Part shown: piece by piece, positions 1 through 2,137 of the stretch | Position numbering within the stretch: the first letter of the stretch is position 1 | How the letters are laid out: each line of letters opens with the position of its first letter | Origin: Betaproteobacteria bacterium HGW-Betaproteobacteria-22 | Lineage (GTDB): Bacteria; Pseudomonadota; Gammaproteobacteria; Burkholderiales; Methylophilaceae | Direction of reading: 5' to 3' | DNA: 64,000 nucleotides | Assembly: GCA_002842285.1 (NCBI GenBank) | Contig: PHCJ01000002.1 | Span: 124,001-188,000 of the forward strand | Translations under genes and position numbers: made by a program | The notes under the pieces: model-generated | Told to the model about the DNA's origin: nothing | Seen by the model: the letters and a program-made list of their open reading frames with translations, nothing else | Databases searched by the model: none

Positions 1-598
1 GCTTGTCGTAATTTGAATCAGATCGTATTGGATTGACGACAGCGATAGCAGACTTAGGAGGACCGTTAGCGCCAATTTCATGATGATCAGTCACTATTAC
101 ATCAATGCCAGCATCTGCAATCTTTTTAATTCGTGGTTCATCACTACTCCCCTTATCCGCAGATATAACCAAGCCTGGTTTAATATCAATGATTCTTTGA
201 GCAACTGGTTCTGTAATACCATAACCTTCAGTAAGTCTATGGCTAGTAACTACATTTACTAATGAAGGGTTAACATTGAAGTAATCAATTAATGCTGACC
301 ATAAAACAGCCGCCGAGCCCGTACCATCCATATCATGGTCACAGACTAGTACTATTTTTTCTTCGTTTTTGATGGCGCCCACTATCCGCCTTACTGCAAC
401 ATCCATATCAGGTATTGATGATGGATCTTCTACATCAGATAAATCATTGGAATACAACAATTCAACATTAATTGGTTTATCTAGTCTTGATGATAAAATT
501 TTGGCAAGCCAGCTAGACATCCCATTTTCAATTAGATTTGAATATACGGATTCATCAATTTCACGAGCTTTAAATATGGGATTTGGTGGCTTTGACAT
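1..598 (-). CDS. RecJ-like DHH-family phosphoesterase/exonuclease, N-terminal part (runs off left edge of window)
   Basis: Manual minus-strand translation from ATG at 598: MSKPPNPIFKAREIDESVYSNLIENGMSSWLAKILSSRL...EEKIVLVCDHDMDGTGSAAVLWSAL...ISADKGSSDEPRIKKIADAGIDVIVTDHHEIGANGPPKSAIAVVNPIRSDSNYDK; motif I CDHDMDG and DHH motif VTDHHEIG. Not in the ORF track because it has no stop inside the window. Confidence 0.85.
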   Translation of the reverse strand, partial: MSKPPNPIFKAREIDESVYSNLIENGMSSWLAKILSSRLDKPINVELLYSNDLSDVEDPSSIPDMDVAVRRIVGAIKNEEKIVLVCDHDMDGTGSAAVLWSALIDYFNVNPSLVNVVTSHRLTEGYGITEPVAQRIIDIKPGLVISADKGSSDEPRIKKIADAGIDVIVTDHHEIGANGPPKSAIAVVNPIRSDSNYDK

Positions 599-915
599 TT
601 ATACGTCCATTATTTTTACTCAGAGTGCTTTAAATGTGACTGATATAACTTTTGAATAAAAATTAATTATTTAAGAATTTACTCTAGCCCTGATCATATC
701 TAGGCTAGTTAGTGGCATTACAACTTATGAAATTAATTGTGAAACACTAAATTTAAGAATCAGTTAATGAATAATACTTTTGTTAAACAATTAGAAAACT
801 ACAAAGCAAATAAAGTATTTTTTTACAAACTATTATTTTATTGTTAATATATCATCGTGATAATTAATGCAGTATATTGTTTTTATTAATTTTTTTATTT
901 AAATAATAAAAAATT

Positions 916-1167
916 TCATGACCGAAGAAAATCACCTACAATCAGTATTTTTTTGTTGGCTTGAATGGCATCCGCCAGCAAGCGCGCCATCTGTTGATTA
1001 TGTGTAAGGCTATGTGGTGACAACAACTGATTTAACGAAGTTTTAACCTGAGCAACATCCGCAACGCCTCTTGCCGCAAAAAGCTTGGCCAGTATCGGTG
1101 CAACCCCTGCCAACTCCAATATTTTCACCGCTTCTTTTGGTATATTTCTCTGTACAATTCGTGTCAT
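916..1167 (-). pseudogene. recJ: Truncated 5' end of chromosomal recJ (single-strand exonuclease)
   Basis: 83-aa ORF MTRIVQRNIPKEAVKILELAGVAPILAKLFAARGV...ANKKILIVGDFLRS matches the RecJ N-terminus and stops where IVGDYDADG is expected. Confidence 0.8.
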
Positions 1168-1174
1168 CGTTCGC

Positions 1175-2137
1175 CTAGCAAATGATTTGCGGCACAGGTT
1201 TGGTGGCTTGCCAGAACTTCAGGGTATCCCAGTAATTTAATTCTGCCAACATTGTTCTATCGTAACATCCTAAATTTAAAGTCAGTTTTTTAATTTTATT
1301 TCGCTTGAGTCCCTGACATATCGCTGCAAAAACTGGCTGCTGCAACTGCCCCGCGCCCAACCCGATACGCACGCGTTTTGCTTCTGCTGCACCGTCCAAA
1401 GCATCAGCCCAACGCCCATTGACTGCATGAAAAGGCACACCAGACCAAGCTGCCAAACCTTGATAAAAAATATCATCTGTCAGGACTAAATCAACACCAT
1501 GCGCTGGCTTTTTCTGCAATGCAGGAAAAACACCACCACCCGACAACCAAAGGCTATTCACTAATGTCTGATTTGAAGCCTCACGCTCGGCATTGACAGG
1601 ATGCGTATGCAATAGCATCTGAATCTCATTCAAATAAGCACGCCATGTTTGCGCCTCATCACCTTGAGGCAGACACGCAAAAACATTTCTGCCAATAGCT
1701 TCGCTGGCAAAAGCGGTTTTAATCTGCGGAGAATGCGCCAAACGTACATACCATGCACCTGAGCTTCCCAGTATAAAAGTTAAGCCATCTGCGCTGAAGT
1801 GCTGATTCAAACTCTCAATCACACGCATCGCATGCGCGTGACTTAATAATAGTGGCACATCCTCACTTAAACTCAGACTGTCACGCTGCATCACAAGATG
1901 CACTGGCGTTGCATGCAGCCAATAATCATGTCCAACCGCTAGGCCATCCATATGGGCGGCCATTGCCGCGACTGGGTAATCTGGCTGGGGAGTTAAACCA
2001 AACTGGCCGCAGACTAGCCGCTCCAAAGATTGAGCTTGCCAGACCTTGCGCGCTTTACTGAGCAAGTAAGCCAAAGCTGAGTGCTCGGCCTCAGCCAATA
2101 ATGATCGAGTTATCTCAACATCTACAGTCAGTTTCAC
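1175..2137 (-). CDS. Uncharacterised protein of the phosphoglycerate-mutase-like (alkaline phosphatase superfamily) group often found next to recJ
   Basis: 320-aa ORF; family recognised by context and general sequence character only. Confidence 0.55.
   Translation of the reverse strand: MKLTVDVEITRSLLAEAEHSALAYLLSKARKVWQAQSLERLVCGQFGLTPQPDYPVAAMAAHMDGLAVGHDYWLHATPVHLVMQRDSLSLSEDVPLLLSHAHAMRVIESLNQHFSADGLTFILGSSGAWYVRLAHSPQIKTAFASEAIGRNVFACLPQGDEAQTWRAYLNEIQMLLHTHPVNAEREASNQTLVNSLWLSGGGVFPALQKKPAHGVDLVLTDDIFYQGLAAWSGVPFHAVNGRWADALDGAAEAKRVRIGLGAGQLQQPVFAAICQGLKRNKIKKLTLNLGCYDRTMLAELNYWDTLKFWQATKPVPQIIC

Follow-up and report, generated by a model that had tools for sequence, protein, structure and literature searches.

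The window analysed here is a 64,000-nucleotide stretch of a single contig (C28:124001-188000) in a 2.53 Mb genome, a draft of 40 contigs that is 99.98% complete. Near its left edge lies the 5' fragment of a host recJ gene, on the minus strand at window positions 916-1167, as an 83-aa open reading frame with the translation MTRIV...KKILIVGDFLRS-stop. The first 79 codons of this frame are those of the host gene, native up to the codons GGT-GAT at about position 931, while the closing FLRS-stop is supplied by an inserted element; RecJ models are matched over residues 19-80 of the product. The 3' remainder of recJ (503 codons, starting PKDYDADG) was located further left on this contig, at a distance of 44.65 kb and in the same direction, at C28:78761-80272. 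Joining the flanks in silico, with 44.66 kb removed (about 80267-124930), yielded an undamaged 579-aa RecJ of the host type, which clustered in a tree with genomes from the same family. The cut falls within the stretch encoding DHH motif I, between GD and YDADG, and the right junction of the insert lies at about 930/931 of the window.

Immediately upstream of recJ is a host phosphoglycerate-mutase-like gene, provisionally called apgM (window 1175-2137, minus strand). Across the order, many genomes have an apgM-like gene adjoining recJ, and the right flank is therefore chromosomal. On the left flank, downstream of recJ, is the host gene for NAD(P)H-hydrate dehydratase. Given host genes on both flanks and an undamaged joined gene, the locus records not a chimera but a single insertion, which has split the host recJ at DHH motif I. 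A preliminary description of the window had spoken of an element that destroys a repair nuclease, which needs correction. Because both fragments of recJ are undecayed, the insertion was probably reversible rather than destructive, although excision is inferred and no excision data are available.

The insert and its gin operon

The insert in recJ is an island of about 45 kb, with a gin operon at its left end and an AT-rich tail at its right. The ginABCD operon (C28:80411-86017) consists of four consecutive open reading frames of 440, 508, 821, and 122 aa, the first three encoding tyrosine-recombinase-like proteins and the last GinD. A Phage_integrase domain (PF00589) is present in GinB, and the tyrosine-recombinase residues (Arg, RH, and Tyr) are conserved in the alignments of both GinA and GinB. 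Nine related loci match GinA, GinB, and GinC in the same gene order, six of them also with a GinD homologue, for which homology is weak (E 1e-3 to 1e-8). A profile of GinC matched the GinC of a canonical GInt with 99.4% probability; the latter belongs to an island on Pseudomonas aeruginosa plasmid p3, directly after the ssb gene, a known GInt site (PMC5385486). The right end of the island is non-coding (window 599-930), with 20.6% GC over positions 599-918 (320 bp) as compared to 46-48% in the flanks. On the basis of the gin operon, the relatives with the same gene order, the link through GinC to an ssb-site GInt, and the AT-rich tail, the insert was assigned to the GInt type (three-integrase genomic islands).

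Cargo of the island includes an IS21 element and an IS-type transposase. Its metal-resistance genes comprise two heavy-metal efflux sets (Cus- and Czc-like) and a pair of heavy-metal P-type ATPases, and a phosphoethanolamine transferase of the EptA/EptB type is also encoded (L005 and L006:4987-6609). A defence-like block adjoins the last gene of the island (C28:119993-122641, equivalent to L006:9993-12641); it encodes a CAP12-type TIR protein (PADLOC candidate family PDC-S35), a T5orf172-domain protein, and an MmeI-like N-terminal piece.

Most of what the preliminary description had proposed for this junction, from sequence alone, was upheld: recJ is indeed cut at catalytic motif I by an insert, the site is the right-hand junction of an integrated element that targets the motif-I codons, the predicted recJ 3' remainder exists at the far end, and, in answer to the prediction of a tyrosine or serine recombinase, tyrosine recombinases are encoded at that far (left) end. 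Its claim of about 0.9 kb of AT-rich DNA held only in part, since about 0.33 kb is non-coding tail and the rest is the start of a second recJ gene. A duplicated att sequence had also been predicted; comparison of the island ends gave only a short, imperfect match (GTAGTC at the left, AAAATC at the right), and a search for direct repeats between the two recJ junction regions found nothing beyond chance matches of 10 bp.

The RecJ gene carried by the island

The right-most gene of the island encodes a complete RecJ of 591 aa (C28:122823-124598), so that the earlier claim of a second RecJ-like gene running leftwards from window position 598 also held. Its first 199 codons occupy window positions 1-598 on the minus strand and the gene continues left to C28:122823. 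The protein has DHH, DHHA1, and RecJ_OB domains, and keeps motif I as CDHDMDG (DxDxDG) along with VTDHH; its match to solved RecJ structures reaches E 1e-52. It is only about 33% identical to native RecJ, and its score against the NCBIfam RecJ equivalog TIGR00644 (358.6 bits) is below the cut-off of 396.9. The element RecJ thus belongs to the RecJ family but falls outside the set of RecJ orthologues; its 5'-3' ssDNA exonuclease activity is inferred. Exactly two DHH-family loci occur in this 99.98% complete genome, the element gene and the recJ 3' remainder, which leaves the element RecJ as the only full-length RecJ. The case that would have refuted the preliminary description, either a second complete native recJ or the absence of a 3' remnant, is excluded by this genome search.

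In a tree of 39 rows, the element RecJ was placed inside a clade of plasmid-borne RecJ proteins (support 100/100), although some branches of the clade are long, and its grouping with native host RecJ was rejected. The clade includes the accessory RecJ of large plasmids in Xanthomonas, Dyella, Rhodanobacter, and Thioalkalivibrio, most of which have motif I as DHDxDG. Those plasmid genes lie among maintenance and recombination genes (HU, RdgC, RusA), unlike the element gene, which sits at a recJ insertion site. There it has the orientation of the split recJ and lies next to the promoter side of that gene; no terminator-like site was found between the junction and the element gene. A scan of viral contigs with the element RecJ returned no relative, and its best matches in a phage collection were about 32% identical. 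A role in phage defence, raised in the preliminary description, was rejected for want of a PADLOC match. A plasmid-type RecJ was also seen in a MAG (G526, 67% complete), inverted on a 3.9-kb contig (G526:C106) and tail-to-tail against apgM, where related genomes have the native recJ; no gin operon and no recJ 5' remnant accompany it there.

Related islands in dinB and other genes

A profile built from four GinC proteins and searched over 85,000 species added six relatives, half of which sit in dinB (Pol IV) at an identical site after GIDEI in the catalytic motif. A fourth dinB island, in a single-contig genome (G923), came from a later search of the family to which Duganella (G766, below) belongs. 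In all four the gene is cut at the catalytic codons, between GIDEI and Y. The Piscinibacter island (G768) is 38 kb long and has ACGAGATC in common at both ends; a full-length DinB, sharing 62% identity with the interrupted host protein, is encoded about 0.3 kb from its right junction. In Herbaspirillum (G769), the full-length DinB shares 65% identity with the native protein and is encoded about 6 kb beyond ginD; the dinB 3' remainder is on another contig and the right boundary is unresolved. In G923, the 5' part of dinB (cut at GIDEI) is at 3076461, a complete DinB at 3106136, and the 3' part at 3115631, and the gin operon lies 23 kb away from the left junction, which makes the island composite. 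No spare DinB was found in the draft genome of Duganella (G766), which also has a dinB insertion. The spare gene is not always at the island end. Where present, the three spares differ from native dinB (GIDEIYID) at the target codons in every case (GIDEVYAD, GIDEIFID, and GIDEVFFD). All fall in the host's own DinB group and do not form one clade, indicating that they were acquired separately.

Another GInt (G764:C27:80874-117090; about 36 kb, Czc-like cargo) splits a radical-SAM gene within the CxxxCxxC motif; no spare of its target was found, and neither was a RecJ or DinB found there. Related gin operons were also observed beside a truncated Lrp/AsnC-like regulator in Paraburkholderia caribensis and beside a truncated Hsp20-like gene in Janthinobacterium, and a further related island is at a hydrolase site; the right ends of all three are unresolved. 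Enterobacter hormaechei and Salmonella enterica also have GInt-like ginABCD operons, in both cases on IncHI2A plasmids. The preliminary description had suggested looking for other elements at the recJ site, and with GinC as query, 369 genomes of the class and 399 of the order yielded only this genome, with no second recJ-targeting GInt.

The tally of islands with a spare of their target is small: one of one in recJ, three of four in dinB (two with complications), and none of one in the radical-SAM gene. If the sole full-length copy were placed at random in the genome, its chance of falling inside the island would be about 1.8%, 0.9%, and 0.7% in the three resolved cases. These figures are rough and ignore the enrichment of mobile DNA for such genes.

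Explanations and known systems

The likely explanation is compensation, in which a GInt splits a conserved coding site and brings a diverged homologue that restores the function. Under this explanation, the island integrated site-specifically into the conserved motif I codons of recJ, splitting the chromosomal gene, and brought a complete, diverged RecJ of the plasmid-borne lineage as its right-most gene. The element RecJ would then be expressed and substitute for the lost 5'-3' ssDNA exonuclease, as the preliminary description had in part anticipated in suggesting that it may rescue or divert DNA repair; replacement fits best, with function inferred. The island may thus exploit a site that is highly conserved, and hence widely available, without loss of function to the host. 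The diverged motif-I DNA of the spare would protect it from becoming a target in turn, and excision of the island would restore the host recJ. That the spares are active and are not themselves targets is an inference; no data on expression, activity, or excision exist to show it. Compensation could still prove wrong: no spare was found for the Duganella (draft genome) and radical-SAM islands, the Herbaspirillum boundary is unresolved, the G923 island is composite, the spare is not terminal in every island, and the element RecJ scores under the equivalog cut-off.

One alternative is coincidental cargo: a plasmid-type RecJ was gained within a recombination kit and the landing of the island in recJ was unrelated. 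The plasmid RecJs of this clade do have HU, RdgC, or RusA genes as neighbours on their large plasmids, and islands of the GInt class have varied cargo. Against it, target and spare match for dinB in three islands as well, the element RecJ is the terminal gene, and neither RecJ nor DinB was found in the radical-SAM island. Because the target and spare pairs match, we consider chance unlikely, with the caution that the sample is small. Alternatively, the spare could have been captured in another host, at a site the island formerly targeted, by faulty excision or tandem integration, without selection for rescue. The spare DinBs, three separate acquisitions, do share the DinB group of the host; the element RecJ, however, is of a plasmid lineage and does not derive from a chromosomal recJ, and the frames of the spares remain open at full length despite long divergence, which suggests selection. 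Capture is the weakest of the biological alternatives and very unlikely.

A takeover would go beyond compensation, with the divergent RecJ or DinB specialised to shift host recombination or mutagenesis in favour of the island (its transfer or establishment). The low identity of the element RecJ to the native protein (about 33%) would fit, as would the fact that both recJ and dinB are repair or recombination genes. No direct evidence supports takeover, however, and related islands also hit non-repair genes (radical SAM, Lrp-like, Hsp20-like); we think it improbable. An assembly chimera at the recJ junction could be raised because the genome is a draft of 40 contigs, but a single 300-kb contig carries both parts of recJ and their host neighbours in line, and joining the parts gives an undamaged frame, which all but excludes it.

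Compensation therefore remains our preferred reading. A bolder version, on which we would lean neither way, is that "break and replace" is a general GInt strategy: the integrases would recognise DNA that encodes catalytic motifs in conserved housekeeping genes, and any island inserted in a repair gene would bring along a spare of that gene, recoded so that it cannot be cut, in a natural parallel to engineered cleave-and-rescue drives. The common view is that mobile elements settle where host genes stay unharmed. In the present case, islands of one class split the active-site codons of repair genes and seem able to do so because a diverged spare is on board. If true, this would explain how islands use highly conserved, widely available sites, RecJ and Pol IV function would be under mobile-element control, and the insertion site alone would predict spare genes, a prediction that can be checked in existing genomes.

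The element class itself is known. Like the GInts described by Bardaji et al. (2017; PMC5385486), the recJ island has ginABCD at one end with integrase-like GinA and GinB, a large GinC without a Pfam match, a small GinD, cargo of tens of kb, a short AT-rich 3' end, and high site specificity. Further GInt traits are imperfect direct repeats of 10-11 nt at either end and circular excision requiring all four gin genes. The targets reported by Bardaji et al. are the 5' end of an ABC-transporter gene and the start or end of ssb, with insertion thought not to inactivate the target completely; in the recJ and dinB islands, by comparison, catalytic codons are split and a full-length homologue of the target is on board. 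The main text of that report does not mention recJ (its supplementary tables were outside this check). SE elements, whose core proteins include Tfp and Srap, are similar in having four core genes, among them one for a recombinase-fold protein, and in being large, non-conjugative islands; they differ in having been reported from a subset of Gammaproteobacteria as a sequence group of their own, and the text of the SE report mentions neither recJ nor dinB. The literature searched, excluding the GInt supplementary tables, held no precedent for splitting of recJ or dinB catalytic codons together with a complete homologue. A functional parallel is with islands and prophages that restore their targets in tRNA and tmRNA genes (PMC4383910; compare the dusA islands, PMC4482086), where the function of a conserved target is likewise spared. 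Islands of the tRNA/tmRNA type restore the split gene by supplying its missing end, whereas the recJ island carries a separate, diverged, and complete gene.
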